Shown: piece by piece, positions 1 to 57,757 of the stretch | How positions within the stretch are numbered: the first letter of the stretch is position 1 | How the letters are laid out: every line of letters begins with the position of its first letter | Source of the DNA: Hexactinellida sp. DTS-2022 | Taxonomy: Eukaryota; Porifera; Hexactinellida | NCBI GenBank assembly: GCA_028753945.1 | Contig: JAPNXP010000012.1 | Location: 4,486,501 to 4,550,500, forward strand | Reading direction: 5' to 3' | DNA length: 64,000 bases | Notes under the pieces: model-generated | What the model was told of the DNA's origin: nothing | The model's database searches: none | What the model saw: the letters and a program-made list of their open reading frames with translations, nothing else | Position numbers and translations under genes: made by a program

Positions 1-3000
1 TTTGTTGTTGGTACACTGTCAGGTACCATGCGGCGGCTTTTTTAGTGTAATCCTCTTCAGCTGTGTGTAGTTTGAATAAATCGCGGAATTCCTGAGTGAG
101 GTAATGAATAGCAGTTTTAAGCGCACTTGTAACTTTGTTCTTGTCGGCAGAGAGCAGCGGGTGACACCTGATGATGAAACAGAGCACAACCTCGGCTTCG
201 GTCTCAATACCAAACGACAGCATTATTCTCTGTAGCGCACTGAAGTATTCAAAATATCTTATTTTAGCGTCTTGCATATAATCCTCGTAACCTGGTATTT
301 GGAATGCTTCCAGCTGCAGATTGAATGGTATATTCTGTTTATGTTTAAATCTATATTTGTTATAATAGTTTAAAATATTCTGCCATTCACTTGTCTGAAA
401 ACAAACAGATTTAGCCAGCTGATAGAGCTCTCCCAACAGCTTGTCTGAGGGGTAAGAAGTAGACTCTGTTTTCTCCATAAAGTCAGGATATCCCTTTTCT
501 TTAATCAAACTCTTTGCCTCGGTTGGTATGTTCGGGGTTACTCCAGTTTTAGGAGAATCCACGGCGATAGAAGCTAGCTTAGCGAGCTGTATCGACAGCT
601 GGTCTCGAGCCCCGGCCGGCTTCATATCACTGACTGCTACGTGGTAATGTGATATTATTCCTAGCAGGTCGTTGCTTATAATCTTGCAATACGACTTTGC
701 TAGTACTGTCTGAATATTGCTATGCGAATGCAACGGAACTGTATTATCTATAACGACATTCTGGTCAATCGACTGATCACCTACTTCTTCCCTATACTCC
801 TTAAGCACGTTGTCATAATTCAATGATGGGAAGGCAGCACTAGCAGGAGGCACCAGCTCTTCGTCCCAAATTATACCAAACTCATCTCCGTCCAAATCCC
901 CGCCCCCGCTACACGCTGGCAATGACGTGCTGCCCGTGATGGGAAATACTATTACGTTTCGCAAATGATGCAGCTCTCCCCTGTCTACAGCAGTTGGCGT
1001 GAGCAGATCCCCTGGATGCAGACATGGGTTCTTATAGACTAGCAACCGGCCCGTGCGTCTGCAGGTGAGAGCGCCCTCTGTCTCTTCGTAGGTTATGAAC
1101 ACCTCGCCCTCTCCCAGCACGCCGATCGGATCCGGGATCCCCATCAACAGGCAGCCCTGCCTCAGTGGAATGTGGAACTTTCTAATCAGATTGTCAATGT
1201 TAAAAGTGTACATGCACCTGAGCAGCGAGAGGAAGAAAGGCTCAGACAGAATATCGACAAAACTCGCAGTGTCTTTTGAATAGCTAGGAAGATGAGAAGA
1301 TAGGTGATAACTCGCGATGTCATTATCCACTAAGAGCTTGGCTTGAATTTCAAGCACATTTGTGAATATAGTTCTGAGACGGGGCTTCGGGTCCCAGCCG
1401 TGTTCGCTCTTGTCCTCTAAGCTCGTTAGTAAGGTCATCATCTGAGTGTTGAGGAATAACTTGTTGTATTTACCGAACTTTACAAGACATAGTTCTGAGT
1501 GAGTCCATTCAATTTTCTTCATTGATTTCCTATAAAGAATATCGCAGTGTATAAGTCCCGCGTTGAAATCAGAATCCGTGTCTGCATCTACAATAGTGAA
1601 CACTCCCTTCAGGCCAGCGAGTCGCACCTGCACTGCCGTGGTGGTGTCGAGAGATTCGCCTGTTTTTAGTTCCATATTCTCAAATATTTTCTCAGCTAGG
1701 CTCCTCTTGATCTTCCCGTTACCGTCTGTCAAGTTTAGATTATTCTCTGCAAACAAGTCAGGCAAGCAATGAGTGTCCGTCTCGCTAACATGGCAGATTG
1801 GGTGGTCAGAGGTACAAAACAAACCAAGTCTAGAGAGATACTTTGTCACATTGTTAACAATAGAATCTCCCATCAGTCGCGATCTGATTTGCTTTATTTT
1901 GTCAGATGCCGACTGTTCATCTCTGATGTGAATGAAAATGGCTCGCTTGCTTCTCAGCTGACTCCCACTGCAAACTAAGAAGTAGAACTTAAGTCCATTA
2001 ATATTAACCCCATCGGTAAGTATATTATTAACGCGGTCAATGACGTCAGCACTCTTTAGCGCCTCCCCGTGTTCCTCTCTGAACGCAAGATTCAAGAACC
2101 TCTCCTCAGGGAACAGTCTGTACAGTCGGTTGCACTGAGTGAAGATGGACTGGAGCGGGGCTACTGCGGAGGGAGTCACCATTGCGCACTCAACGTAGCA
2201 GTAGTTGTGTCGACAAGGTTTGGGGTCAGACTCTGGGTACTCTTTGAGGTTATCCAAATATTTATCAAACGAATGCAACAGATCGAAGAAATAATAAGTT
2301 GTGTCTTTAGATTTCAGAGATAAGAGATGAGTGAAGGTCTTAGCCAGAGCCTTAATGCGAGTTCGATCAGATTGGGAAATCTCCAAAGTAAGCCTACGAA
2401 TAGTTTCTTGAGGCAGACAGATGTCTCTCCATGATCTTAACACATAGAATTCCCAAATGCAATCCTGCACTTCCTTATCCCAGTAATCAGGGTGGTCGAC
2501 TAGATTTATTTCCTCTGTCTCCATTGGAGTACAGATACTGACCCTAGAGTCGAATACTGGGACAAGGAATGTTTTTGATGAATGGAGAAGTACCCATAAT
2601 TGACTCCAATTGTTAGTCTCGTATGTGAGAGAAATCGCAAAAACAGGCGACTCTCCGAAGAAAGACACATAGCGACTGTTGTCACAAGACAGAGTTTCCC
2701 CAGAAGCAGACTGCACTTTGGGACTAAAGCTAAGAGGGAGGTACAGCGTGACGTCACTATCTGTCCAGTTAGCCAATGCGAAGAGATGAATAGATGCAAG
2801 TGGAATTTCAATTGTCAATTGAGAATTTGAATCAATACAAACTGTTAATTCTATGAAACGATTGGAAAATAATTCGAATTTTCCATTTCCTTCAGCTAAT
2901 TGTAGTTCTTCAGCTAAGTGAAATGTATGTTTGTCGTTAAACTTTCCCCATGAGACCCTTTTCACAGGCCACTTCAAGAGATACTTCATTTCCCGCATCA

Positions 3001-4289
3001 GTGGTATTTGTACTCGGCTCCAAATATATGACTCTTTATCCTTAAGAGTGAAATGCCATTGTACAGTCAGTAGTTTGTATCTCAGATAAATATTATCTCT
3101 TTGGGTTTGCAGGCCCAAGTGAATCAAGGAATCTTCAAACGGAAATATACCATTTGATTTCCAACGAGCTTTTGAGTTAGCTAATTCGATACGCTTAACT
3201 TTCAAAAAGTATTTATCAAATAAAATATTTGCAATCTCATCTTGAATATCAAATAACTCGTGTGTTCCGGTTATGTAGAATTCTACTGCACACTCAGAGG
3301 AGAGGAGAGCCATGCAATCCGGGATGTGGGTTATTTTCTTGATTTCTCCTTGTAGCTTTTCCGTCAGTTGAGATGGGAATTTAGTTTCTGAGTGTCTATC
3401 TTTGAGCACTGCCTTAACTTGAGATTCGTGTTCCTGGATAGCCTCGAACCTTGACCTCTCATCTGCAGAGAGAATTAATATAAACTCACTGTTCTCCCAT
3501 TTCCTAGCTCGGCCCTTACTCTGCTTGAAAGAAATCAGAGATTGGATCCCGTCAAAGCGAATAACGACATTGCATCCCGGAATGTCGAGGCCTTCCTCCA
3601 ACACAGATGTGCTCACCAGAAGATTACAGTTTCTGTTACGAAAGTTTTCTATTATCTCTTCTTGATCGTTGATCCAGTTCATTCCGAATGGACCAGTTTG
3701 TCCGACAATCTTCATTGGAGAAAATTTATCATTAATTTCCTGATTTTCTTTGAGTATAGTTGCTAGGATAGAAGCAATTCTCCGTGTTTCTACAAAAACA
3801 ATAACTTTAGAGTCCCGAGACATTCCGTGTAGGATACTGAGCAGCTCCAAAAGTCTCGGAGAGGGAATCGGCTGAGAATCAAGCTTGCTAAATACATCTA
3901 ATCCACTAACCATTTGGTGAGCAAATGTAACGCCTAGCATCTCAGTGACGTCTAGTAGCTTGCATATCTTCTTCATTGAGCTGACATACTGTGTGATAGC
4001 CGCATCATGCTGCTGCTCCATGCCGTACAGCATTGTGATCAGCTGACTCCTGTTCTTCTTGTTCTTCCAATCATTCTTCCCTATGAGCTCTTCTTGAGAG
4101 CATTTTTTGATATTGTCCTTTAATTGTATTAGCTCTGATTCTAATATATTTTGGTATTCAACAAGTTTACTGTCCAGCTGTTTACTAATCATTATCTTCT
4201 TAATTACTGCGTCGTCACGTTGATGACATTCGATTGACAGGTCATGACAGATGGGGGCTGAGAAAAAGTTTTCCTTGAACTGTTGCAAT
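1..4289 (-). CDS. Helicase-RdRP fusion, C-terminal part (helicase motor 2 + RNA-dependent RNA polymerase), runs off left edge
   Basis: This is the downstream portion of a gene that starts at 8898 and is split by the P-element. Read by hand on the minus strand, the frame is open without a stop from the insertion to the window edge (about 1430 codons, no intron). It begins with the second helicase lobe: motif V (EEGLDIPGCN, about 3585) and motif VI (QSKGRARK, about 3510) are of the Dicer/RIG-I type. Much further on lie NPCLHPGD (about 1030) and the catalytic DLDGD (884-898, roughly residue 1467), followed by a tryptophan-aspartate; these are signatures of the two-barrel cellular RdRPs (QDE-1, EGO-1, plant RDRs). 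The expected role is copying RNA into dsRNA for small-RNA pathways. A helicase fused ahead of an RdRP is known from Dictyostelium Rrp proteins; finding it in an animal is unusual. The C-terminus lies outside the window. Confidence 0.9.
4282..4289. repeat. 8-bp target-site duplication, left copy (GTTGCAAT)
   Basis: Direct repeat immediately outside the left terminal inverted repeat. The identical copy is at 7884-7891. Confidence 0.95.
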
Positions 4290-7200
4290 CATAGACTACT
4301 TAATACTATGGACTGTCGACTCTCAATCTCGGGTCTTCAAACTCGGGTCCATTGTTATCTCTAGAACTATTAAGTGTATTGATATTAAATGTATTATTGT
4401 TGAATAGGAAGTCATATATGGTGATGCCATTGGTCGTATTGGCATATCTCAAATATATCTGGTTTTTGAGTTTTGCGGTTTTCACACCTTTCCATATATG
4501 GTAAAAATGTTGAAAACTCGGAATCAGTTAAAGTTAGACATGAAGAATGTATTATGGGCGAATGGGAAGTTGTATATAGGGAGTTTATTAACCCTATTGG
4601 ATTATCTTAAATATTTCTAGTTTTTTAGTTTTGTCGTTTATGACTAATCTATATTTTATCCATATTTACTTAATATTTTTGAGTTTTTAGTTAGCTATTT
4701 ACTAGCCACGTTTCAATCCAAAGATGCCCAGACGTTGTGCAGCATTTAATTGTCGAGGGAATTATAGTCGTAAACCTTACTCGCAATTAGTTAGCTTTCC
4801 ATCAAATGAAAACGAAAGAAAAACTTGGATTGGTGCAATGCCCAATAATCCACAAACTTTAATTGGAAGAAAGGAAATTTGGATATGCGCTTCACACTTT
4901 GACTGCGATTGGGTAAAAACAAGAGGAGGGAAACGTCCTGCTAAGCCACCTACTATATTTCCTGGTGTTCCCAAATCATGCATGAAACAAAGTAAAACCA
5001 TCCCAAGACCTACTAAATTTGCAACATCTTATGCAAGAAAGAAAATGGGAGAAAATTTGTTAGAAAAACTCGATAAAATCAACAATTATCAGAACTTTGT
5101 TAATTCTATTGCATCACATGTTACTAATTTTCGTTTTATTAATAACGGAAAGGATTTAACCATGTTTATGACTAACACACTTGGTAAAAAAGTTGTCCAA
5201 TTTTTACATTTCCGAGAAGTCGAATCCACATTTGGATATTTACAACTCATATTGGCAGAAAAAAATGGATTTGAAGTGCCCAACAACAAATTTGATTTAC
5301 AAAAGAATAACTTTCTACATAAATGGTCACAGTTGAGCAATATAATATCTGTAATGAATTGTTATCATCCATCAAATAAGGACTATTTATCAAAAGCTAT
5401 GAAAGAGCTTAACAAAATTGAAGAATTACAAGATTCACCGAACTTTCAATTCATTCTGGGACAATTGGACCTCCTTTTGCCACAAGTTAAAGGACGCCGT
5501 TATACTAAGCATATCGTTATCCTTGCAGCCGAGTTACTTTGCATATCACCAGCAGCATACAGGTTGTTAAGAAATTCTAAAACCATTACACTACCAAGAG
5601 AAAAATTAATTCGAGAGTTAATGTCAAAATCATATCAAGACAACAATTTGGAAAAACTTTTTGAAACATTGAAGCCACAACAACGTTTGGTAAACATATT
5701 ATTTGACGAGGTCAAACTTAAAAAAGCAATGCGTTTTACTGGGGGGCATGTAGTTGGTCATGCAGCTAACAAACCAGAAGAACTTGCAACTTCAGCATTA
5801 GTAATTGAATTAATATGTCATTATGGTGGACCAAGGTACATCATAAGAATTATTCCTGTAACATGCCTAAAATCTTATCAATTAAAAGAAATGTTATTGG
5901 AAGCTGCTTTTGTCGTAAGAAAAAAGGGGGGACACATTATTTCATTTATCTGTGACAATTGCCCTTTAAACCAGCAAACTTATATTCAACTTGGTGGCCC
6001 CGGAAGAGTTTATTTACAACCAGATGGACTACAAGTATTTCTTGTTTATGACTTTATCCATATTTTTAAGAATATAAGAAATAATTGGATTACCGAAAAA
6101 CTTAAAGAATTATCATTTACAGTAAACAAAAAAGACTATGTTGCATGTTGGGATGATGTTATCAAACTTTATCATGAAGATAAAAAAAACCCAATTCGAC
6201 TTACCAAATTATCTAACTGTTCTGTTCATCCAAAACCACTACAGCGTCAAAGTGTACCATTAGTTTGCCAAGTTTTTAATGATAAAACCCACGCTGCTTT
6301 TAAAGCACTCCAATGCAATTTCAATTTTCAAGAAGGGACACTTGTTTTCATCAATCTTATAACGCAGTGGTTTAAAATGATGAATGTTAAAGATAAATTC
6401 TCCTGCTTTCGACTTAAAGATGAATCTCGTGCTCCTTGGTCTGATAATTGCGGAAGTTTTGATGCTTTGCAAAAAATCTGTGAAGTAATTTCAAGTTGTA
6501 AATGGACTGGTGGGCGGGAACGGAAAAAGAAGTTGACTAAATTCACTGCTGAGGCATTTGTGACTACAACCATTAATAATATAGCTGCATCTAAATATCT
6601 GTTGGAAAATTATGATTTCCAATATATTCTTCCTTCTATATTTTCTCAAGATCCTCTAGAAAAGTTTTTTGGTCAGGCTAGACAGCGTTGCGGCGGAAAT
6701 TATTACATCGATATTGAAGATGTATTATCAGCTGGAAAAACTCAACACGTTCACCAATTAATAAAATATGACATAATTCCCCATGGCACTACTGGTAGAA
6801 ATTGTTCGGTCTGTGACTCAGATATTGAAGAAACTGACATACAACTACTACATGAGTTGAGTGTCGAAGATACACAAAATTTGCTAAATTCAAGTGATTC
6901 ATTAAAACATAAAGTTGTTTACATTGGTGGATTTTTAGTTCATAAGCATGGACAACCTGATGTTGATGAAGGAGAGGTATCATCAGAATTTTTAAACGAG
7001 CTTAATCGAGGTGGGCTATCAATACCCACTTTAAATACAGTCTTTTTTGTTCATTGTGCAATAACTGCTCACGAAAACATTCCTGAATGTAGACGAAATT
7101 GTACCATATACTTCAAAAAACTTTTATCATATATTGATGCACCTATTTCCCAAAATGAGAATGCATGCCAAACAGCAACCAACGTTGTATACAAGGCATA

Positions 7201-7883
7201 TGTATTAAATAATAGTGACACTGAGAGAGAATTAGGTTGCTTGAGACGCAAGGAAAAGCTTTCTAATAACACTTAGTATTCTCAATCCTAAGAATTCATT
7301 ATACATACGTATTTTTCATTTTAATTACTTTTTATCAAAGAATTGTTATGTGAATATATTTACCCTTGCATTTATTATTAGTTAGTTCCGTCTAACATTT
7401 ATTTTAGTCTCTTTTTAGCTTAAGTATAAAATATAAATCTATTTTAATGAAAGATTACTAAAACTGCGACTATAAACAAAAATCTACAATTGGTTCCGAG
7501 TTATTAAGATTATTACCATATTAGGAGTGCGAAAAGGAAAAAAACAAAAAAACTAGAAATATTTAAGATAATCCAATAGGGTTAATAAACTCCCTATATA
7601 CAACTTCCCATTCGCCCATAATACATTCTTCATGTCTAACTTTAACTGATTCCGAGTTTTCAACATTTTTACCATATATGGAAAGGTGTGAAAACCGCAA
7701 AACTCAAAAACCAGATATATTTGAGATATGCCAATACGACCAATGGCATCACCATATATGACTTCCTATTCAACAATAATACATTTAATATCAATACACT
7801 TAATAGTTCTAGAGATAACAATGGACCCGAGTTTGAAGACCCGAGATTGAGAGTCGACAGTCCATAGTATTAAGTAGTCTATG
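4290..7883 (+). mobile_element. P-element-family DNA transposon, apparently intact, inserted in the helicase-RdRP gene
   Basis: A 3594-bp element bounded by near-perfect terminal inverted repeats of about 337 bp (4290-4626 and about 7548-7883, starting CATAGACTACTTAATACTAT). The 8-bp direct duplication GTTGCAAT lies at 4282-4289 and 7884-7891; 8 bp is the normal P-element duplication length. It carries one transposase gene with a THAP domain. The near-identity of the repeats and the uninterrupted transposase frame suggest a recent insertion. The repeats are far longer than the 31 bp of the canonical Drosophila P element. Confidence 0.95.
4724..7276 (+). CDS. P-element transposase (THAP domain, RNase H-like core), 850 aa
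   Basis: The transposase of the element at 4290-7883, transcribed opposite to the host gene. The N-terminus is a THAP zinc finger: C5, C10, C55 and H58 fit the C2CH spacing, and a PPTIFPGVP tail follows, as in THAP proteins. The middle and C-terminal regions resemble P-element/THAP9 transposases. Candidate catalytic acids are D328 (LFDEVKLK), D411 (CDNCPLNQ) and E646 (DPLEKFFGQARQRCGG); the last block matches the conserved third acidic motif of the family. The frame is one uninterrupted exon. The protein should bind the subterminal repeats and cut and paste the element. Assignment to the P superfamily is firm; activity is inferred from an intact frame and young repeats. Confidence 0.93.
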   Translation: MPRRCAAFNCRGNYSRKPYSQLVSFPSNENERKTWIGAMPNNPQTLIGRKEIWICASHFDCDWVKTRGGKRPAKPPTIFPGVPKSCMKQSKTIPRPTKFATSYARKKMGENLLEKLDKINNYQNFVNSIASHVTNFRFINNGKDLTMFMTNTLGKKVVQFLHFREVESTFGYLQLILAEKNGFEVPNNKFDLQKNNFLHKWSQLSNIISVMNCYHPSNKDYLSKAMKELNKIEELQDSPNFQFILGQLDLLLPQVKGRRYTKHIVILAAELLCISPAAYRLLRNSKTITLPREKLIRELMSKSYQDNNLEKLFETLKPQQRLVNILFDEVKLKKAMRFTGGHVVGHAANKPEELATSALVIELICHYGGPRYIIRIIPVTCLKSYQLKEMLLEAAFVVRKKGGHIISFICDNCPLNQQTYIQLGGPGRVYLQPDGLQVFLVYDFIHIFKNIRNNWITEKLKELSFTVNKKDYVACWDDVIKLYHEDKKNPIRLTKLSNCSVHPKPLQRQSVPLVCQVFNDKTHAAFKALQCNFNFQEGTLVFINLITQWFKMMNVKDKFSCFRLKDESRAPWSDNCGSFDALQKICEVISSCKWTGGRERKKKLTKFTAEAFVTTTINNIAASKYLLENYDFQYILPSIFSQDPLEKFFGQARQRCGGNYYIDIEDVLSAGKTQHVHQLIKYDIIPHGTTGRNCSVCDSDIEETDIQLLHELSVEDTQNLLNSSDSLKHKVVYIGGFLVHKHGQPDVDEGEVSSEFLNELNRGGLSIPTLNTVFFVHCAITAHENIPECRRNCTIYFKKLLSYIDAPISQNENACQTATNVVYKAYVLNNSDTERELGCLRRKEKLSNNT

Positions 7884-7891
7884 GTTGCAAT
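7884..7891. repeat. 8-bp target-site duplication, right copy (GTTGCAAT)
   Basis: Direct repeat immediately outside the right terminal inverted repeat, identical to 4282-4289. In the host gene these bases encode part of the Leu-Leu-Gln-Gln stretch that the insertion interrupts. Confidence 0.95.
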
Positions 7892-8898
7892 AGTTCTACG
7901 GTTGCTTTGATTTTATTCTGTGAAGAAGGGGGAGAGGCAGTTAGTCCGAGCAAACGAGGCCGATGCTCACACTTCTTTAATTCATTGAGTATTTCAACGT
8001 AAACGTGACCTTTGATCGCGTGATGGCATTCATCGAATATTACATAGCAGAAATTGTGTAAACCAACAGTGCGTTGAATGGCTTTGTAAGCGCCAGCAGT
8101 GGCTACCAATACATCGTAATGTCCTTGGTTCAACCAACGGAGTTTTAAGTTCGTATTAGACTCACTGGTCAGAGTACACACATTCATGTTTGTGTCGATA
8201 TTAATGGCTTCGCCTTGTTGGTACACCAACGGGACTCTGTCCACAATAAACAGGACCATGTACCGTGGATTCAATTGCTTCATTCTAGCAGCAGCAATGC
8301 TAGCAACTAACGTTTTCCCGTAGCCAGTAGGCAGCACTAGTATGAAGTCTCTCTGCAGTGCCTCTATATATGCAGTGACCTGGTAGTCCTTTGGGACTAT
8401 ATCCGACTTGAGAATGTCAGTGTACTCGAAGTGAGAAGTGTCTCCAGGGTCAGGAAATATAATCTGATCATTTTCATTCTCTTGAGGCGAGGATAATTTG
8501 AGCCTCTTTGGCTCACTGGTCTCAATCGGGTCTAGTCGATCTCCGCGGAAGTTGGTACAGTCCCGTTCTACAATCTCATTGAAGGGGGCCTGTTTACACA
8601 CGGCAGACCAACTATCTTTTTTCGACTTCAATCTCTTTCCTTTTATGGATATTTTGTCTCTCCCAAAAACAAATACTTCTTCCCCTTTCGGACCAATCGG
8701 GAGTTTCTTTCCCAAATAGCTTTTACACTGTAAACACATAATGGCATCGTCCCTACGATCTTTATTCTCAAAGAATTTATTCTCCAAGAGGAGAGTACGC
8801 TCGTACTTAACCATAAGGTGCAGAGCTGAATCGGGCATACGATAGAAGCAGAGTTCTTCAATGGGAAAGTCATTTCCACCACATTTAATACAATTCAT
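7884..8898 (-). CDS. Helicase-RdRP fusion, N-terminal part (C4 domain + DExH helicase motor 1), cut by transposon
   Basis: The N-terminal portion of the same gene. The open frame extends upstream to about 8960, but the first in-frame ATG is at 8898, which I take as the start; an upstream exon cannot be excluded. From that Met, residues 3-58 hold two CxxC pairs (C3/C6 and C55/C58) in a layout resembling the zinc-binding C-terminal domain of RIG-I-like receptors. The DExH motor follows: Walker A LPTGYGKT at 189-196, motif II DECH at 289-292, motif III TAS at 320-322. DECHHA is typical of the Dicer/RIG-I superfamily. After ELLQ the frame meets the P-element and stops within a few bases. Removing the element plus one copy of the 8-bp duplication continues the frame exactly into the part at 4289. 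The allele on this haplotype is therefore probably null. Confidence 0.88.
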
Positions 8899-9358
8899 GA
8901 AAGCTAGTTCATAAACACACAAGTAAATAATGAATATAGTCCAATAAATACATGCTCTTCTTTATCAATTTCCATCTCCCAACTATGAACATTTACAATC
9001 TGTGAATCCAAGATTAACATAAGTTAGTTAGTTCTTGGTTAATCTCTAGGCTATTATTTGTTATATACTTATTCAACTAGGGGGGTCGGGCAATATTCTT
9101 GTATTACAAGTAATAAATTCTTAAATGTACTCGTAAAGAGGTAACTATGTAATTATGTAAAGTACAGTCGAAACCGATTTTTCTAACACCGGTTTTTTCT
9201 AACAAATCGGTTTATTCTAGCTTGGATTTTTCTTACTTTATTTTCATGCAAATAATTGGATAGAAAAAAAACCGGGTTTTGACTGTACAAATTCGCATAT
9301 CCCTGGTTACTCCATAACGAGATTATACTGTAAGAATATTTGGATAACTAGTGTAATA
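8899..9358. other. Divergent intergenic spacer (helicase-RdRP / C11orf54)
   Basis: About 460 bp between two divergently transcribed genes, so it probably holds both promoters. It contains one pogo-like MITE (9165-9285). No other feature was recognised. Confidence 0.6.
9165..9285. mobile_element. pogo/Tigger-like MITE, TA-flanked
   Basis: Inverted ends CAGTCGAAACC and GGTTTTGACTG, flanked by TA on both sides (9163-9164 and 9286-9287). About 121 bp with no coding capacity. It lies in the divergent promoter region. Confidence 0.75.
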
Positions 9359-31713: not shown

Positions 31714-34700
31714 TCAATAATCATTCTCAATAGTGAAGCTCTCATAGGGAACCTTGATGCTGGTGCTGGAGTGTGGCGTGCCGACCTCCTCGCCTGGAAC
31801 GGAGAGTGAAGTGCTAAAGTGAGCCATACGAACTGTGAGCGAACTCTGCATGTCCTTTGCTCTTTGACTCTGAGGGTGTAGCAGCGAGTGCTCAATAGTG
31901 ACTGGTTCTAGTTGCATTCCCAGGTATTCATTATTTGCCTCAGTCGGCTGTGTAGCGTTGTTAGTAGAGACGATATCTTGACTCTCTCCTCTCCGATTGA
32001 TTCTGAACTTGAGCGCAGCTGGCGGTTTGCTGGAATTAGGATTCGAGCTAGCATTCGTGGTTGTCGGGTAGGAGCCCTGAACTGGTTTCCATAGGAACAC
32101 ATACTTCATGATCTCAGGGGTACTTAGTGGGTACAGAATAGAGAATATCACCCCCTGCAGACCGATTATAATGGTGAATATGAACGCAGTAGCTGGAGTA
32201 GGAATATTAGCAAAAACCGAGAAGAGCCAAGGAATGCAAAGAAGTGGTGCTAGAGCCAAAGTGGCAACCAACACACTGCGTAATCTCCTAAACCTATTCC
32301 CTTTCCCTTTTGATACTTTGAAAAGTATTATCGCAGTCAGAATAAGGAATACTAGATTCAATAGGGTAATCAGGCTCATTGGAATAACAAAAGCTAGACT
32401 CACAAATGTGGGCTCATTGCTCAGCCAGCAGACCTCATCGACTTCATCAATAATATACTCGTGGGTGATAGACGGGGTGATTATCACAAGTGGAATTGGG
32501 AGCCCCCAGCTTAGAGGCACTAGGAAATACCAGAATCGGCGTTCTACGTCCCAAGCGAGTATCTTAATCAGCAGGTATAGGCCTACGACGAGAGATGCAG
32601 TGAAGACCGCCAGCCAGAAGTAGTACTGAAGGATGGTGAGAGCAAGACAGGCTGTTCTGTTGCTGTACGCACCAGCTGACGAAATGAAGAAAAGGAGGGC
32701 GAGCAGGAGAGCCACGGCGAAATTGAAATGAAGTATGGTAGCGTCCCTCTTGAACAAAGAGGTGGTTTGCTTCCGAGTCCTGAACCATAGAATAATATAA
32801 GCGAGTACCGAGATAGTTAGGAATATTATGGAGATGGAGCCGAGCAGGTAGGATAGGATCTCAATCGCGAGTGTCTCTTCAGGAGTTAGGTGCAGAGAAA
32901 CAACTGAGCCTAGGACAGCAAAATTAGTGAGATGAGACACGGAGCATTGTGCTGGACCCGGAGGGACCTGATTAGAGTTGGAGAGAGTGGTCCCATTCGA
33001 TACCCACCCCTCATCGATGAACTGAGAAGATACGCAAGTATAGACTAGGCTGAACTTGACAAAGTTCGTTATGAGAGGAGGATCGAATAGAAGCCCGAAT
33101 GAAAGGAGAATATCTTCATTCAACTGCTCCACGCGTCCGCCCCCTCTCGTGAATATATTCAAATTGGAAACCGCAGTACTGAGAGTGTCATTGACACTCC
33201 TCTGCCTGGGAGAGAGAGCCACGGCTGCCTCCACTTCTCCCAACAGCTGAGCGACATTTGGAAACACAGAAAAGCTCACTTCGACGCCTCTGCCCACGTC
33301 GTTGGCTCGTACAACTGAGGCAGGAATCAAAACGGAGGCCTGAGCTCGCGACAAGGCGGAAGGGGTATTGAAAGAGTTAGGAATGGAGCTAGGTCCGATA
33401 AATATGGCATCAATAGGGTCACTAACCACTGTGACAATAAGCGCTACGTTCTGTTCCTCTATCAGGATGCTACTGTTAACGGGGATAACTGAGCCGAGCA
33501 GGATCCCTAGAGTCTCAACTGTGGCGACTATGCTATCGATCTCGGACTCGACTTCTGTCTGCGGAGAAGTTATGAAAGCTATCCTATTCTCGCTTCTGAA
33601 CACATTAGAGGCAATACGGACTATACTATCTTGTACTCGACTGAGAGTGTCATCAAGTTCGTCTCCAGTTAAACTCAAAAGTGAATTCCTAATGGCCTGT
33701 AGTCCCGCTACGGCCTGCATCAACTCCCCCGGGTAGAGACCCCGGATAAACGCACTAGTCGCCGTGACCAATCGAAGGGACTGCGTCACACTCTCCTCTG
33801 CAGTTAATGGAGTGTTCGGATCAATTGCGCTACTCTGGAGAGAGAGGAAAGAAGCACTCACACAGTTCTGATAATTAGTTGTCTCGCTCACGCCTGCGCC
33901 ATTGCATCGCCTGGAAATTGTACCAAACAGAGTGCCATCGAGCTGGGAACAAGGAATTGTCGCGTCAGTGTCTATGGGAGTGGCTGGAAATGTCAATTCC
34001 GTACCGAAATCGTTTAGTTCTGTGAAAGAAGGGCAAGCGGGTATTCCAACCGAAATGTTACAGTTTGTCCCTTCGTAAGATGGCTCGCATTCACAAATAT
34101 AGTTTTCAGGTGGAAAGAGATTAGAGCAGATTCCGTTTACACAATTTTCAGGAAAATCACACTCATTCGTATCTACACACTCTCCATTGACCCTTGTAAA
34201 CCCGTTAAAACAGATGCAGCTGAAGCTCCCCTCACTGTTAACACAAGCGGAATCTGCACACGGCGTGATGTCACTGAGGCACTCATCTATATCTACACAG
34301 GCATTGCCGTCAAAGCCATAGCCAGCTAAGCAATCACAGTAGAAAGAACTGTTCGAATACCCTTCTGAGCACATTCCTAAAACCCCGCATGGTTGTTGTG
34401 TCAAGCAAATGGAAGATGTAATAGGAGAGGGATTGAAAGCGATTTGTGGATTACTTCTTACACACTGTTCACGACCTGGATACAAGCGGGTAGGATTATA
34501 ATTAAAGTATACATATACTTCATATTCTGTTCGAGACCGCAGTGAGTCAATCAAGTAAACTCCTGTTTGACAATCAACTACAATGCTAGGATCCACCTGA
34601 GTTGAAAAGATAAATGAAATTGTAGAGTCCACACACAAAACGGGCGTCGTATCCCAACTAATCTCGATTGTGCTGGTTGACACTCGGAAGGTTAAGCGTA

Positions 34701-37700
34701 GGGATTCTAACAGGCTCTGATTGGTTTTAACCATTAAAGCAGAATCGAAATCGGAAGTCCTCAAACCCCCGTCGTATACTGCCTCCACGAAGAAGAAATA
34801 GTCCAAGAGTGGGAACAGAGTTAATTCGCCCTGAAGGGAAGACCCGAACTCCTCACAGAAAAAATAGAATGAGCCAAAACCAGGACAAACGTCGAATATA
34901 AGACTACGGTTGGTTCCAAGCGACATGGGTCCACTCAGAAAGCAGTCTGGATAAATGTACTGTGGACACTCCTGACCAGTCAAGGTGAAAGCATTGGAAG
35001 TGGGTAATGCGTAGAGGATGTAAGATTCAAACTGCTGAGGGATTGGGAAAACAGGAATGTTGGTCCACTCAGCCCGATAAACATTGTTGCTAGGGTCTAT
35101 TGGAATAGCGAGACTGGTCAAGAAAGGAGACGCGGACTCAGGGAGATATGAATACAAGCCCGGAGTGAATATGACGATGTGAACTGGATTGTCTATAACA
35201 GAAAAGTTACCAGGGAACTTGATCGATTGGTACGGAAAGATAAATAGTACATTTGGGCTGGGGGCATCTGGTGCTTGCAGTTCAAAAGCGCTGTTGTTAC
35301 AAGGGACCACTTGAAAGAGATCACCTGTTAAGTTCTGGGGTGCATAATAAAATACAGTTCTGGTGCTGTTGGTACAAATCTGAGAATTGTACTTGAAAAG
35401 GAGACGCAGATTTATTCCCGAGATTGCGATGAGCTCTGCCACCGATTCAATTGGAATGTACAGATCGGAGGCAGGCTGAATATAGCTCACACCGCTTAAC
35501 TCGTAAGCAACAGCAATGCTGTATTCGTAACCAGGGAGAATAGTGATAATAGCGTTGTTGCTCGCTGTAGTAAGCTTGGAGCAAGTGAGATTAGGATTTG
35601 AATCAAGGCACATTTCATACAGAGCCTCTCTGGAGAAATCTGGTGAATCAGCATAGTCAATGTTCTTAATCTGTTGTATAAGGTCACTTGAAAATACCGA
35701 ATTAACTTGAGTGGTTAAAAAGGTTACGAACTCCGGTATAGCTAATAAGGTATAGGAGGTAACGCCGGGGATCAAATCCCACTCAACGTTCACATTAGCG
35801 AAATCCACAAATTGAATGTTCTGTATAAATTCAGCTGTTGTTATTTTATCAAATTCAATTCTAAAAGTTGCGCAACTCGAAAAGAATGTGGTGGAGTTGA
35901 AGAAAATGTCCGCCTTAATAAAATAAGTTTTCGAATAATCAAGATCAGTGATTAGGTACGAACCATCGTCACAGGGCAGAATAACTGTTGATGGAAAAGG
36001 TATTGGGCTGAATAAATCGTCCCAAGACAAATAGACAAAAGCCTCAGGCGGGCAGAAAAAGTTGGTATCCCATTCAACAAGAATGCTTGTGTTTGAGGTA
36101 AGACGAGTGCTAGTATAAAGTTCTCTTTGGCTTTTGATAAGATTTAAGTCACCTAGCTGAGTGATACCATTTGTTCCAGGCAAGAAGGTACTATCAGCGT
36201 TATTGGATGTAATGAAACGAATAGCTGGATCAAACCCAGGTATAATGTCAATAGTAATATCCGCTGTGTTAAAAACGGATATGCAAGAATAGTTTGAGGT
36301 GTTCTCGCAAAGTAACGGAGGAGATACAACCAAACTGTCCATTTGAACGATGTTAATCTGAGAGGCGCTTAGGTCCGTATCATCCCTAATATCAGGACAT
36401 TGATTTGTTACGTTAGCCAATTCTAAACGACGGACTTGATAGGGCAGGAAATATACACTTGCTGGCTGATTGAAAGTTTCAAAAATAGCAACACTCAAAG
36501 AAATGGTGTTAAAGTCGAGATATATAAAGTCAATTACAGTACTAGCAGCAATAGTATCAGGGTCCAACGGTTCCAACCCAAAGCTAGATCTGAAAATTCT
36601 GTTGGATTCAAACCCGCTCAAGCAAGCACTCCCATCTGCCGTTACAGAGTTTGTAAACAGATTCGCTCTTGTTTCAAAGTTGCTAGGTACGTTCTTAAGG
36701 AATGTAGGGGAAGAGCTGCAGGGAGTGATATAATTTCTGATAAAATTAGTCTCTAAAACTATTTGCTCGAAAACCCTGAAAAATACTAAAGAGGAAGGTA
36801 AGCATAAATTTTGATTCCATGAGAAATCCTGATAGGCAACCCCACGTGTTGTCCCTAAGTTTATTTCCCACGATGAGTATATCGCCGGGTAACTCCGTAC
36901 CTTTAGTACACCACTGCTGTTAGCATTCAGAAGTACTGCTTCCACAATTACACCGACAGCAAAGTTACGATCAATGCCGACGCTCAGAAGGTTGTTTGTA
37001 CTGAGCACGGAATGGCATTGATAAGGAAGAGACACGCCAGGAGAGGGGGGACAGGTGAGATTGAATTGGATTTGTTCAGGAATACTAACCCCATAATCAT
37101 AGTACTCGGTTGGGAAGAAGCTGAATTCATTAGTAGGAGTTTGAGAATCGATACTACTGCAAGAATCTCCGTTAAATTTCAATGCATACACAGGGAATAT
37201 GTATACATTGAAATGGTCCATTGCTGTGAGAGGAAACGACCACCTTATAATGGCACCCTCTCGATTATTAGTTATGTAGTCAATGACAGGAACATCAATA
37301 ACTTCGGGATTGTTGATTTGGAAAAAAACCAATTGTATTCTCGTATATCTGCAGGTATTATTGGGGATGAGATCTGTGGGAGAGGTAATTCGCAGATCTA
37401 ATGCCACACTCAAGAACTCCTGTATTTCCGCATTTGAGACTACAAAATAGATATACAAATACTGAGATCCACAGAGTGTATCAGAATCGAGTTCGATATT
37501 ATTCAAAGGGTTGGTAAACTGAGTGTAACGAGCGGTCATTCTATGTTGCTCACAAAAAGTTACATCTGGGATTTGCCAAGTTAACAGAGCTCTATTGTCA
37601 AGAGCACTTAAAACTGGTCCTCCATCAGATTGCGGTACCTGATTACCATTATCGTTGGTCAGTTGGAAGTTCAACAATTCTGTATAATGGGCTGAAATGG

Positions 37701-38901
37701 AGAAGATGGTGCAGGGAGTGGTCATCACGGAAAATTCAGGGTAAACAGTTTCGATACAGAAAAAATGGTCGATCATATCGAATAGGTCCACTACCAAACT
37801 GAGATTATTAGAAATGTAGCAGAAATAATCACTAGCATTCTCACAAGGCAAAGAGTCACCGACACTAAATGGAAGTCTAATGTCCAGTGACTCCAACTGA
37901 AGCTCGTAAGCCGAAGGGTAATCACAGCTACCGTAGTAGTATAAAACCCTCCCAGCGAAAGAAAATACTCGATAATACACGGTATCATTTGGACGGAGGA
38001 GTATTGGAGAAGAAAACGTAAGGTTGACTTGATTGTAGCTGAGGGGGGAGGTGGCGACAGAACTCGCTGCCCAATTACGGATAAGGAATGGAGTGAGCAG
38101 CTGCACGGGTAGTGTTTTGGGAGATGAGTTGATGGAATTCCCGAATACATCAGTTGTAAAGTTGCTATTGGGAAGTATTAAGTTGCAAGTTGCAACATCT
38201 GGATTTAAGGTTGGACAGACTGCGTTGATGACAGATAGCTCGAAAACTTCGAGCAGGATTGTATATCTCTCAGAAGCTAGTCCCGTTTCAACGCTATCTG
38301 CTACATTAGTGAGCTTTGAAAGGAATACAGAATTCGAATTCTGTTGTGGATTCGAGACAGATTCAATATAAATTCCAGGGAAATTAATTGGATCAATAAT
38401 AACAGGCTCAGTGAAACTGATAATTATTATACCTAACTGAAAATCAATCTCAAAGTTGCTGACCTGAGGAGAAGTCAAGTCAGGAATAATACTAAGCTGA
38501 ACCTGCTCTAGTTGTAACGGGATTATAAACAAAAATGTTGAATTAATATTTGCGAGACATTCAATACCAGGCTCATTGCCTATGACAGTCTTAATTTGGG
38601 TGGTATTAGACGCGCTTAGAGTAATTGTATGCACATCCGAGGTCTGAGGTGGAAATGAGAATGACAACGACGAAAACGTGCACAAGGAATTGAAAGAAGG
38701 TTGGTTAGAAAGTACGAAATCCTGATCAAACAAAAATGAACTATCAACAACAATGTCGAACGCAAGGGTAATAGTGATTCTCGGACCAGCAAACGATAGG
38801 AAACTACCGGTGCTATTCACCGTGGCCTCGATAGCGAGAGAACTGCGGAAACAATATGCAAACAAGAGAAGGGATGTGACCACTGATGAGAGATACATCA
38901 T
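31714..38901 (-). CDS. Giant adhesion GPCR (EGF, GAIN/GPS, 7TM), single exon, 2395 aa
   Basis: A signal peptide (about 1-23) leads a very long, N-glycosylation-rich ectodomain of about 1470 residues with beta-sandwich-like repeats; I do not assign a family to these. EGF modules follow (about 1496-1615), including calcium-binding types (DIDECLSD, DTNECDFP). A GAIN region ends in the GPS, where CSVSHLTNF places the expected autocleavage between L1991 and T1992. Seven hydrophobic helices follow (about 2005-2275), with adhesion-type features such as FKRDATILHFNFAVALLLALL and WLSNE. The intracellular tail is about 110 residues. The expected role is surface adhesion or mechanosensing with a tethered agonist exposed at the GPS. 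A 7.2-kb coding region without introns is striking. A diverged paralogue lies at the right edge. Confidence 0.93.
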   Translation of the reverse strand: MMYLSSVVTSLLLFAYCFRSSLAIEATVNSTGSFLSFAGPRITITLAFDIVVDSSFLFDQDFVLSNQPSFNSLCTFSSLSFSFPPQTSDVHTITLSASNTTQIKTVIGNEPGIECLANINSTFLFIIPLQLEQVQLSIIPDLTSPQVSNFEIDFQLGIIIISFTEPVIIDPINFPGIYIESVSNPQQNSNSVFLSKLTNVADSVETGLASERYTILLEVFELSVINAVCPTLNPDVATCNLILPNSNFTTDVFGNSINSSPKTLPVQLLTPFLIRNWAASSVATSPLSYNQVNLTFSSPILLRPNDTVYYRVFSFAGRVLYYYGSCDYPSAYELQLESLDIRLPFSVGDSLPCENASDYFCYISNNLSLVVDLFDMIDHFFCIETVYPEFSVMTTPCTIFSISAHYTELLNFQLTNDNGNQVPQSDGGPVLSALDNRALLTWQIPDVTFCEQHRMTARYTQFTNPLNNIELDSDTLCGSQYLYIYFVVSNAEIQEFLSVALDLRITSPTDLIPNNTCRYTRIQLVFFQINNPEVIDVPVIDYITNNREGAIIRWSFPLTAMDHFNVYIFPVYALKFNGDSCSSIDSQTPTNEFSFFPTEYYDYGVSIPEQIQFNLTCPPSPGVSLPYQCHSVLSTNNLLSVGIDRNFAVGVIVEAVLLNANSSGVLKVRSYPAIYSSWEINLGTTRGVAYQDFSWNQNLCLPSSLVFFRVFEQIVLETNFIRNYITPCSSSPTFLKNVPSNFETRANLFTNSVTADGSACLSGFESNRIFRSSFGLEPLDPDTIAASTVIDFIYLDFNTISLSVAIFETFNQPASVYFLPYQVRRLELANVTNQCPDIRDDTDLSASQINIVQMDSLVVSPPLLCENTSNYSCISVFNTADITIDIIPGFDPAIRFITSNNADSTFLPGTNGITQLGDLNLIKSQRELYTSTRLTSNTSILVEWDTNFFCPPEAFVYLSWDDLFSPIPFPSTVILPCDDGSYLITDLDYSKTYFIKADIFFNSTTFFSSCATFRIEFDKITTAEFIQNIQFVDFANVNVEWDLIPGVTSYTLLAIPEFVTFLTTQVNSVFSSDLIQQIKNIDYADSPDFSREALYEMCLDSNPNLTCSKLTTASNNAIITILPGYEYSIAVAYELSGVSYIQPASDLYIPIESVAELIAISGINLRLLFKYNSQICTNSTRTVFYYAPQNLTGDLFQVVPCNNSAFELQAPDAPSPNVLFIFPYQSIKFPGNFSVIDNPVHIVIFTPGLYSYLPESASPFLTSLAIPIDPSNNVYRAEWTNIPVFPIPQQFESYILYALPTSNAFTLTGQECPQYIYPDCFLSGPMSLGTNRSLIFDVCPGFGSFYFFCEEFGSSLQGELTLFPLLDYFFFVEAVYDGGLRTSDFDSALMVKTNQSLLESLRLTFRVSTSTIEISWDTTPVLCVDSTISFIFSTQVDPSIVVDCQTGVYLIDSLRSRTEYEVYVYFNYNPTRLYPGREQCVRSNPQIAFNPSPITSSICLTQQPCGVLGMCSEGYSNSSFYCDCLAGYGFDGNACVDIDECLSDITPCADSACVNSEGSFSCICFNGFTRVNGECVDTNECDFPENCVNGICSNLFPPENYICECEPSYEGTNCNISVGIPACPSFTELNDFGTELTFPATPIDTDATIPCSQLDGTLFGTISRRCNGAGVSETTNYQNCVSASFLSLQSSAIDPNTPLTAEESVTQSLRLVTATSAFIRGLYPGELMQAVAGLQAIRNSLLSLTGDELDDTLSRVQDSIVRIASNVFRSENRIAFITSPQTEVESEIDSIVATVETLGILLGSVIPVNSSILIEEQNVALIVTVVSDPIDAIFIGPSSIPNSFNTPSALSRAQASVLIPASVVRANDVGRGVEVSFSVFPNVAQLLGEVEAAVALSPRQRSVNDTLSTAVSNLNIFTRGGGRVEQLNEDILLSFGLLFDPPLITNFVKFSLVYTCVSSQFIDEGWVSNGTTLSNSNQVPPGPAQCSVSHLTNFAVLGSVVSLHLTPEETLAIEILSYLLGSISIIFLTISVLAYIILWFRTRKQTTSLFKRDATILHFNFAVALLLALLFFISSAGAYSNRTACLALTILQYYFWLAVFTASLVVGLYLLIKILAWDVERRFWYFLVPLSWGLPIPLVIITPSITHEYIIDEVDEVCWLSNEPTFVSLAFVIPMSLITLLNLVFLILTAIILFKVSKGKGNRFRRLRSVLVATLALAPLLCIPWLFSVFANIPTPATAFIFTIIIGLQGVIFSILYPLSTPEIMKYVFLWKPVQGSYPTTTNASSNPNSSKPPAALKFRINRRGESQDIVSTNNATQPTEANNEYLGMQLEPVTIEHSLLHPQSQRAKDMQSSLTVRMAHFSTSLSVPGEEVGTPHSSTSIKVPYESFTIENDY

Positions 38902-46691: not shown

Positions 46692-48251
46692 CTAGTGTTT
46701 CTGTAGCTTTCTCAGGTTAATATGGAGACCGCCTTCACACTTAGTAATCACCTGAGGAATGCGAACAATCTCTTTGGCAACAGAAACTAACTCAAAATTA
46801 TTTAGAATCTTTGACACAGCTATGACTTCTTCGCTAACTGCGAACTTCTGTCCGATGCAGTTCCTAGCTCCCCCAGAGAACGGGACATATGCAAACGGAT
46901 GGCCCCCAGGTACATCTTCTTCGAATCTATGAGGATTGTACTTTCCAGGATCCTCCCACACATCAGGCCTCCTGTGACATAAAGTTATCGCCAAGACAAG
47001 CCAGACCCCCTTGGGAATAGTGTGCTCCCCCACCTTCAGCTCTTCTGTCAGCTCTCGATGCACAAACGGAACGGGAGGGTAGAGACGCATTGCTTCCTTA
47101 ATACACATGGTGGTGAACTTAAGATTGGCCACATCCTCAGATCCTACAAAGTCCCTGCCCCCTAGCACGCCCCGTATCTCCTCTCTGCACTTGTCCTGGT
47201 GCTGGGGGTGGAGTCCCAGCAGATACAGGCTCCAGGACACCCCCGATGCGGTAGTGTCGTGCCCCTCGAACAGAAACGTGTTCATCTCCTCCATGATGTC
47301 ATTGTTAGTGAGATGCGCTCCAGACTGGTCAGTCGCAGTCAGGAGAATGTCAATGAAGTCCTTTTTCTTAGCAGGACGAGGTGAAGATTGCAATTCTTCG
47401 AAGTAAGCTTTCCTCCTAGCCTTAACCACCTTCATAGAATGGTCATGAATGATCTTACAACACTTGCGGAATTTAAACCCTTCAGGAGACAAGTGGAAGA
47501 CAGACCTGACCTGATAAGGAATGTACGAGATCTGTGTATTCGAAGATTTATTGTTGTAGTATATTGAATCGATGTATTCGCTATCAGGTGAACCAGGCTG
47601 TTGGCAATTTGAGGTGTAAGAACATGCACAGCGTAGCATCACGTCCAACGTCATTAGTCCCACGTCATCACATATTTCCAGTTGACAAGTACCCTCCTTC
47701 GCCAACCGACCCCACTTCTCAACCAAGCAGTCAGCTGCTGCATTGTATATTGAAATGTAACTGTTTAGAATCTCAAAATGAAATGCAGGTGTCAACATGC
47801 GTCTACGTGTGTGCCATTTTTCATTATTAGAGATTAGCAAGCCTTCTCCCAAGTAGGGTTTGACCAAATTATACACCTTTGCCTTAGGGGCTGTGGTCGC
47901 TTTCATGCATAGCACACGCCCTATTACCTCAGGGTGTGTAAGCACAATAGTATACAAAAACGGACCCATTCTCCCTCGGAAAAATTGATGTTCTAAATGA
48001 TCTCGCGTGTAAGCCTCGCACCACTGGAGACCACGCTCGGTCGGTAGGAAGTATCTCATTGTGCCTAAGATAAACTCTATGGGGGGGCCGGGCAGCTTGT
48101 CTAGGATCGGTTTATTTTTCGAGAAATAAATGAACGCTTCCAGCTCGTAGAGTTGGTATATTAGGAGTGCGAGCAGAAATGGAATAACAATGTAAGTTAA
48201 ATTGTCCCAAATAATCGAGAGAAAGAGATACGCATATTCACTTATGAACAT
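46692..48251 (-). CDS. CYP4-like cytochrome P450, tandem copy 1, 519 aa
   Basis: A single-exon P450 with all key motifs. There is an N-terminal membrane anchor (about 15-35), the proline hinge LPGPP, the I-helix EGHDTT at 329-334, ExxR at E386/R389, and heme-binding FSGGARNCIG at 458-467 with C465 as the thiolate ligand. The FEGHDTTASG block is characteristic of CYP4 (clan 4) enzymes, which hydroxylate fatty acids and other lipids at the ER membrane. It differs from copies 2 and 3 at only a few percent of positions (for example SSNTQIS against SVNSQIT). A TATA-like box conserved in all three copies lies about 70 bp upstream. No frame damage is seen, so it should be functional. Confidence 0.96.
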   Translation of the reverse strand: MFISEYAYLFLSIIWDNLTYIVIPFLLALLIYQLYELEAFIYFSKNKPILDKLPGPPIEFILGTMRYFLPTERGLQWCEAYTRDHLEHQFFRGRMGPFLYTIVLTHPEVIGRVLCMKATTAPKAKVYNLVKPYLGEGLLISNNEKWHTRRRMLTPAFHFEILNSYISIYNAAADCLVEKWGRLAKEGTCQLEICDDVGLMTLDVMLRCACSYTSNCQQPGSPDSEYIDSIYYNNKSSNTQISYIPYQVRSVFHLSPEGFKFRKCCKIIHDHSMKVVKARRKAYFEELQSSPRPAKKKDFIDILLTATDQSGAHLTNNDIMEEMNTFLFEGHDTTASGVSWSLYLLGLHPQHQDKCREEIRGVLGGRDFVGSEDVANLKFTTMCIKEAMRLYPPVPFVHRELTEELKVGEHTIPKGVWLVLAITLCHRRPDVWEDPGKYNPHRFEEDVPGGHPFAYVPFSGGARNCIGQKFAVSEEVIAVSKILNNFELVSVAKEIVRIPQVITKCEGGLHINLRKLQKH

Positions 48252-48317
48252 TTTATTCTACAGTATAACAGTAACAATATATTGGTCTAGTTTGCTGTAC
48301 TGGCGACTGTGAATCAC

Positions 48318-53059: not shown

Positions 53060-53341
53060 TTTATTCTACAGTATAACAGTAACAATATTTTGGTCTAGTT
53101 TGCTGTACTGGCGACTGTGAATCACTTTTTATATAAAAATCATGCTTTGTACGTATTTATATTGCAAAACATGCCTTCCCACTAGCTAGTCACAATGGGG
53201 CCTAATACCCACTTGAATGAGTCTGTGTTGTAATGTGATCAGTTTATTATACAGCCATTTGTAAATTTACTTCTAATCCTGGTCTGATCCAATTTTCATA
53301 AGCCTAAATCACAGAGGATTCCAAATTTTCGCGCTCCTAAT

Positions 53342-57485: not shown

Positions 57486-57757
57486 TCTATTCTACACATA
57501 TACGTATATTGGTCTAGTTTGCACTACTGGCGACTGTGAATCACTTTTTATATAAAAATCATGCTTTGTACATATTTAATTGCAAATGTCACATACCTTC
57601 CCACTAGCTAGTCACGATGGGATCTCGATACCTAATACTCACTTGAATGAGTTTGTGTTGTAATGTGATCAACCAAATATTCTAACTAGTTTAATTATCT
57701 TAGCACTAAAAACATTTAAACATATTTCGGATTGTTAGGTTATAAAATAAAGAATCA

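Follow-up and report, generated by a model that had tools for sequence, protein, structure and literature searches.

In a 64,000-nucleotide stretch of the genome of the sponge Hexactinellida sp. DTS-2022 (contig JAPNXP010000012.1, hereinafter C4, positions 4486501-4550500; this whole stretch is the window), we found an intronless gene which motifs, profile matches and predicted structures show to join four parts in one reading frame. These are an N-terminal zinc domain predicted to resemble the C-terminal domain (CTD) of RIG-I-like receptors (RLRs), a DECH-box helicase, an RNA-dependent RNA polymerase (RdRP) resembling RDR2, and a putative terminal nucleotidyltransferase. We propose, with a probability of roughly three in four, that this gene specifies a single-chain RdRP complex of RNA silencing. 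It is incomplete inside the window, with its stop codon lying about 2.5 kb to the left, beyond the window start (C4:4483997-4483999), and the copy in the assembled haplotype is interrupted by a P element.

The gene is read on the minus strand from an ATG at 8898, in an open reading frame (8961..7879) that holds helicase motifs I-III. The CTD-like zinc domain occupies about the first 112 residues (8563..8898), with CxxC pairs at 8881-8892 and 8725-8736. It is followed by helicase domain 1 (7927..8388; Pfam ResIII E=1.6e-20, DEAD E=6.3e-19) with motif I LPTGYGKT (8311-8334), motif II DECH (8023-8034) and motif III TAS (7933-7941). On the other side of the P element, a frame that is open at the window edge (2..4288) contains helicase domain 2 (Helicase_C, 3503..3841, E=2e-17), with motif V STSVLEEG (3590-3613) and motif VI QSKGRAR (3503-3523), and the two-barrel RdRP catalytic domain (419..2179; PF05183 E=2e-111, 580 of 582 profile positions). 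The latter displays the motif NPCLHPGD (1007-1030) and, as its catalytic DxDGD, the sequence DLDGD (884-898). Among solved structures, RDR2 of Arabidopsis and RDR2 of maize are its best relatives (E from 5e-44), and the predicted fold of the middle region is likewise RDR2-like. Beyond the window, the same frame continues into the nucleotidyltransferase motif GSVSKFLCELESDLD (C4:4486193-4486237) and a third aspartate within DVSIDVSV (C4:4485956-4485979). RNase III domains are absent from the Pfam matches of the window pieces and of the off-window remainder, which rules out a Dicer. A first-pass annotation, made from the letters of the window, had recognized the fusion of a Dicer/RIG-I-class helicase with a cellular RdRP in the genome of an animal, in a single frame broken just by the P element. 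Both points hold: hidden Markov model searches recover ResIII/DEAD, Helicase_C and PF05183, the empty site stays in frame, and the frame 1-4289, in which it had named stop codons beforehand as the sign that it was wrong, has none in 1,429 codons. Its account of the layout stands for the helicase and the RdRP, but it overlooked the N-terminal RIG-I-type domain and the off-window nucleotidyltransferase, and their presence alters the likely mechanism.

Relatives of the gene, 238 proteins numbered with the prefix P, were gathered as the best 120 of 179 and the best 120 of 377 from two homologue searches in which capped lists of 7,998 and 7,999 candidates were scored. In such a search the 4288..2 frame shows 80% identity along its whole length to a 2,397-aa protein, which, like the other RdRP loci of the genome, speaks against a frame open by chance. 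Our own domain profiles were built from animal members, those of the helicase and RdRP also from two EukProt sequences.

P elements are recognized by an 8-bp target-site duplication, terminal inverted repeats and a THAP transposase. All three hallmarks are present in the insert (4290..7883, plus strand, 3,594 bp): comparison of the insertion edges reveals 8-bp duplicates at 4282..4289 and 7884..7891, the terminal inverted repeats are perfect over 337 bp, and a plus-strand frame of 856 codons from stop to stop (4706..7276) matches the Pfam THAP and TNP-like RNase H families. The element splits the helicase, leaving motifs I-III on one side and motifs V-VI with the RdRP on the other, and its removal restores an empty site that agrees with the ortholog P0001 and preserves the reading frame. 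The duplication, the inverted repeats and the continuity of the frame across the empty site rule out that the split is an intron or exon boundary. The first 511 bp of the element have at least 43 matches in the genome (112 Mb in 18 contigs), a lower bound, as the scoring took in 40 of 696 candidates; of the matches, seven, the window copy included, cover the full stretch at 99-100% identity, and such near-identity suggests that the family probably moved recently. Being split by a recent P element, the allele in the window probably makes no full-length protein, though haplotypes free of the insertion may exist.

Seven RdRP loci in the genome are near-complete, and one further copy has decayed. 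Each of the six other near-complete loci covers at least 535 of the 582 profile positions and is a single open frame of 2,106-2,785 codons. Five of the seven near-complete genes, namely the window gene and the loci L009-L012, combine the helicase-type layout with the nucleotidyltransferase triad. The latter four are uninterrupted, are sited on three other contigs, and hold all four parts in one frame; in them, as in the P-element-split window gene, a superfamily 2 (SF2) DExH core and Helicase_C precede the PF05183 RdRP. The remaining two, L014 (C18:868800-878700) and L015 (C8:2295500-2305400), are single open frames with an AAA_28 P-loop domain, the RdRP and a C-terminal superfamily 1 (SF1)-type helicase (AAA_11/AAA_12), and neither Pfam nor our own profile finds a nucleotidyltransferase in them. 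Hence, two kinds of helicase-RdRP chain exist in this genome. The same genome has 15 Piwi matches, of which six lie in frames intact over 895-1,052 codons, and nine RNase III matches, which together make a silencing pathway plausible; no helicase match was seen in the 3-kb RNase III loci (among the RNase III genes are those at C11:963792, C11:11890836, C6:1654044 and C11:628453), which are too short to show one. For Hydra and Nematostella, PMC4791657 reports Dicers devoid of the helicase. Two smaller observations concern this family. In L010, the linker between the RdRP and the nucleotidyltransferase (protein positions ~1,750-2,035) contains a tandem short peptide repeat rich in S, T, D and Q. 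The decayed copy, L016 (C1:10116500-10126400), is nearest to the L011 type; the top 30 tblastn rows show stretches with 42-85% identity.

That the window gene is itself a dead pseudogene, with a frame that survives just through the recent arrival of the P element, we regard as possible but doubtful. The element lies within the frame and the genome holds a clear L011-type pseudogene on C1, both of which favor such a reading, and the interruption in the assembled haplotype weighs against a working window copy. However, the insertion is the sole frame break; elsewhere the gene reads through and shares 80-82% identity with its ortholog. This conservation of an open frame argues for function up to the time of the insertion.

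Structure prediction gives the N-terminus a fold like that of the C-terminal RNA-binding domain found in the RLRs (LGP2, RIG-I, MDA5) and in the worm protein DRH-3. In the alignment of 25 sequences, the cysteines C3, C6 and C58 are invariant and C55 is kept in at least 90%, together forming a putative zinc-binding site of the four-cysteine PF11648 type, and the predicted structure has the RLR CTD fold. The Pfam family RIG-I_C-RD matches 11 of 14 members at E<=1 (best 5e-5), and the DRH-3 CTD is among the best matches in both Foldseek and profile comparisons. Unlike in the RLRs, where the CTD is C-terminal, this domain precedes the helicase. Several results weigh against the assignment. The Yippee/Mis18 profiles match the same number of members, 11 of 14, such that sequence alone cannot separate the two; the top PDB profile match is Mis18; Foldseek E-values lie around 0.01, with none at 0.001; and the window copy taken alone matches no Pfam family at E<=1, neither RIG-I_C-RD nor Yippee/Mis18. 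We considered a Yippee/Mis18 identity and set it aside: the profiles tie with RIG-I_C-RD, and the predicted structure favors the RLR CTDs. In Foldseek, a Mis18 chain comes up at rank 45 (E 0.46), and the 50 VIA-align rows include no such chain, so a kinship to Mis18 is still conceivable.

The part lying beyond the window is, judged by its motifs, a terminal nucleotidyltransferase of the Cid1/terminal uridylyltransferase (TUTase)/GLD2 type with its catalytic triad kept. Across the eight aligned members (the window gene, two paralogs, P0003, the Hydra and Nematostella proteins and two further sequences), the G, S, S, D, D and third D positions are invariant in all. Profile searches return RNA uridylyltransferase 4 (2ikf, best E 4.2e-8), GLD2, Cid1, MEAT1 and Tailor, and PF22600 matches all eight members at E<=0.1; P0012 (47.7 bits) and P0025 (39.4 bits) pass its cut-off. 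Other observations count against the proposed reading: the window gene scores 23.6-25.7 bits with PF22600, below the cut-off of 27; our profile has no match in Naegleria, Willaertia, Tieghemostelium, Ostreobium and the soft coral Dendronephthya (P0126), nor in the long proteins P0131, P0143 and P0151; and the oomycete matches to the N-terminal and nucleotidyltransferase profiles are weak, the nucleotidyltransferase of Aphanomyces excepted. The diatom protein stops too early to judge.

These gaps favor the view that the gene is an ordinary helicase-RdRP of the RDR-gamma type, a label taken from PMC4791657, and that its extra domains are decaying or structural and play no mechanistic role. The helicase-RdRP layout itself is in print (PMC4791657), the nucleotidyltransferase escapes detection in a number of fused relatives, long ones among them, and the window copy falls under the PF22600 cut-off. 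However, the triad is conserved in eight of eight members and the zinc cysteines nearly as strictly (three in 25 of 25, the fourth in at least 90%); as such conservation would be unexpected in decaying domains, we consider this view rather unlikely.

With respect to described proteins, the first-pass annotation had claimed that no animal protein of this layout was known. This does not hold for its helicase-RdRP core: Bollmann et al. reported the DEAD-helicase-C-RDRP arrangement in Hydra and Nematostella in 2016, beside Dictyostelium and oomycetes, and set the helicase clade of such RdRPs apart from Dicers (PMC4791657). A DEAD/DECH helicase, Helicase_C and RdRP are likewise united in one chain in Hydra, Nematostella, Phytophthora and the Dictyostelium proteins RrpA-C (PMC4791657; PMC3661229). 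The published layout comprises three domains as opposed to the four seen here (PMC4791657), and our analysis finds the N-terminal and nucleotidyltransferase parts in the Hydra and Nematostella proteins too. In contrast, neither Pfam nor our own profile detects a nucleotidyltransferase in the dictyostelid relative. The main text of PMC4791657 lacks the words nucleotidyl-, Cid12, RIG-I and zinc, and that of a survey of animal RdRPs (PMC6396948) lacks helicase and nucleotidyl-. In the titles and abstracts searched, a body of literature with subscription papers mostly outside it, neither a chain of helicase, RdRP and nucleotidyltransferase nor an RdRP bearing an RLR CTD at its N-terminus is described. 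Thus, helicase-RdRP chains in animals were already known, and we found no earlier description of the four-part layout. The SF1-type chains L014 and L015 have a parallel in Branchiostoma BL02069, in which an animal RdRP is also joined to an SF1 helicase (AAA_12; PMC6396948).

Comparable sets of activities occur as separate proteins in two well-studied silencing systems. The worm Caenorhabditis elegans uses EGO-1/RRF-1, DRH-3, EKL-1 and CDE-1, as against one chain in the sponge. DRH-3 is a Dicer-related helicase with a CTD that the N-terminal domain described here is predicted to resemble, except that it sits at the C-terminus. No counterpart of the Tudor protein EKL-1 is seen in the Pfam matches of the chain. 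The fission-yeast RNA-directed RNA polymerase complex (RDRC) consists of the subunits Rdp1, Hrr1 and Cid12. To our knowledge, Hrr1 has no RLR-type CTD. This complex also brings together an RdRP, a helicase and a member of the poly(A) polymerase family, but as three proteins instead of one. Cid12 is documented as an RDRC component (PMC5322907), and CDE-1 as a poly(U) polymerase of the EGO-1/RRF-1 and DRH-3 pathway (PMC6351104, PMC6232588).

These parallels, together with the domain content, suggest how the single-chain complex might operate. The activity that we infer from its sequence would begin with the N-terminal domain binding a template RNA at its end or duplex, in the manner of the LGP2, RIG-I and DRH-3 CTDs. 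The helicase would then move along or open the template, and the RdRP would copy it, making either double-stranded RNA (dsRNA) or short antisense RNA. Tailing of the template or the product would fall to the nucleotidyltransferase. Such a division of labor would parallel that among separate subunits in the RDRC of fission yeast and in the 22G-RNA machinery of worms (EGO-1/RRF-1 and DRH-3, with CDE-1), and the product would be used by this genome's Argonautes and RNase III enzymes. The amplifier of RNA silencing that the first-pass annotation had envisaged remains the best reading. Uniting sensor, helicase, polymerase and tailing enzyme, the chain predicts a whole working cycle, which one recombinant protein would suffice to test. 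Among animals, PMC6396948 describes an RdRP requirement for RNA interference (RNAi) as shown in nematodes only.

Alternatively, the protein could be an antiviral sensor: viral dsRNA would be detected by its helicase and RLR-like CTD, and the further dsRNA made by its RdRP would serve as a signal rather than as a source of small interfering RNAs for Argonaute. The chain indeed shares the helicase class and, by prediction, the CTD fold of LGP2, RIG-I and MDA5, and Nematostella RdRP1-3 are among the genes detected following poly(I:C) (PMC8476169). However, it departs from the RLRs in having its CTD at the N-terminus and an RdRP and nucleotidyltransferase fused on, and a Pfam scan of the window pieces and of four full-length relatives yields no CARD. 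Given also the Argonaute and RNase III genes of this genome, we hold a purely sensory role to be quite improbable.

The distribution of the layout bears on its age. All four parts are found in order in 28 of the 238 relatives, matches among the members used for building the profiles being partly by construction. This set takes in the cnidarians Hydra, Nematostella, Acropora and Montipora, as well as the dinoflagellate Effrenium and, weakly, Pythium. Of the other layouts, the commonest is N-terminal domain-helicase-RdRP (85), many of which are short models or truncated frames of ~1,150-1,380 aa, with P0126, P0131, P0143 and P0151 being long. RdRP-only proteins number 66, helicase-RdRP-nucleotidyltransferase proteins 26 and helicase-RdRP proteins 14; rarer are helicase only (12), RdRP-nucleotidyltransferase (5) and N-terminal domain-helicase (2). 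The mostly plant and fungal RdRPs P0051-P0117 show no match to the N-terminal profile, and their sole nucleotidyltransferase match is P0055 from the sea anemone Actinostola.

Separate helicase and RdRP phylogenies of 38 fused proteins agree, having 26 of 35 splits in common as compared to a maximum of two in 500 label shuffles, and their pairwise distances correlate at r 0.918, a value attained in none of 2000 permutations. This agreement indicates that the fusion is old, and by these comparisons the helicase and RdRP have long been inherited jointly. Clade trees were built from the labelled domains that passed a 75% coverage filter (56 of 126 for the RdRP, 48 of 156 for the helicase); in the helicase tree the ortholog P0001 stands in for the window gene, the halves of which were not joined there. 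In these trees the two halves keep together across sponge-like, hydrozoan, anthozoan, oomycete, heterolobosean and dictyostelid clades. The sponge-like clade joins a hydrozoan group including the Hydra protein with a support of 1.00 in the RdRP tree, and the deeper node at which Pythium, Bremia and Phytophthora join has 0.52, deep nodes being weak. In a further helicase tree, the helicases of the RdRPs are tentatively placed with P0230 and P0231, away from Dicers, with a support of 74; we took these two as RLR-like from their PF18119 annotation, and both hold two helicase copies that the slice spanned. In both the helicase and the RdRP clade tree, Ostreobium (P0144) lies beside anthozoans, and Effrenium (P0129) and Aphanomyces (P0139) lie among animals, placements which may reflect transfer or contamination. 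That the helicase and RdRP belong to two genes on different transcripts, or were brought together by a chimeric assembly, is barely credible despite the interrupted window allele, as four intact paralogs on three other contigs hold both in one open frame, independent fused proteins exist in other species, and the two trees agree.

On a broader scale, we tentatively raise the notion, itself doubtful, that the four-part chain is an ancient, pre-animal single-polypeptide RDRC, and that the helicase-CTD module of RLRs and DRH-3 was derived from its front half or shares a direct ancestor with it. If true, animal RNA sensing would be a part split off from an RNAi amplifier, and the separate yeast and worm subunits would either have arisen by fission of one machine or be parallel assemblies of it. 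The four-part chain as described here relates the yeast and worm amplifiers of RNAi, and perhaps the RIG-I-like sensors, to a single architecture that occurs in sponges, cnidarians and several groups of protists.

The best named match of a neighboring SARAF gene is from the glass sponge Oopsacas minuta (51% over 92%), followed by the demosponge Dysidea (40% over 66%), with five other proteins scoring higher. In the genome at large, TGF-beta, which is not known outside animals, has four matches, and Wnt has none, in a search that gave no signal in any control genome either and hence is no sign of absence; Oopsacas has TGF-beta but lacks Wnt (PMC10280926). Taken together, these matches point to a glass sponge. 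The assembly has no COX1 match. Relatives of the RdRP (P0002) and of SARAF (P0239) come from contigs of equal length (194,138 bp), and the neighborhood may thus be conserved in another sponge. An adhesion-type receptor is encoded by a 2,395-codon single frame on the minus strand (31714-38901), with 7tm_2 and EGF matches and a GAIN match below its cut-off. Three single-frame cytochrome P450 genes of 521 codons each follow in a row on the minus strand (46692-48257, 51500-53065 and 55926-57491), their starts ~4.4-4.8 kb apart, and probably represent a tandem expansion.

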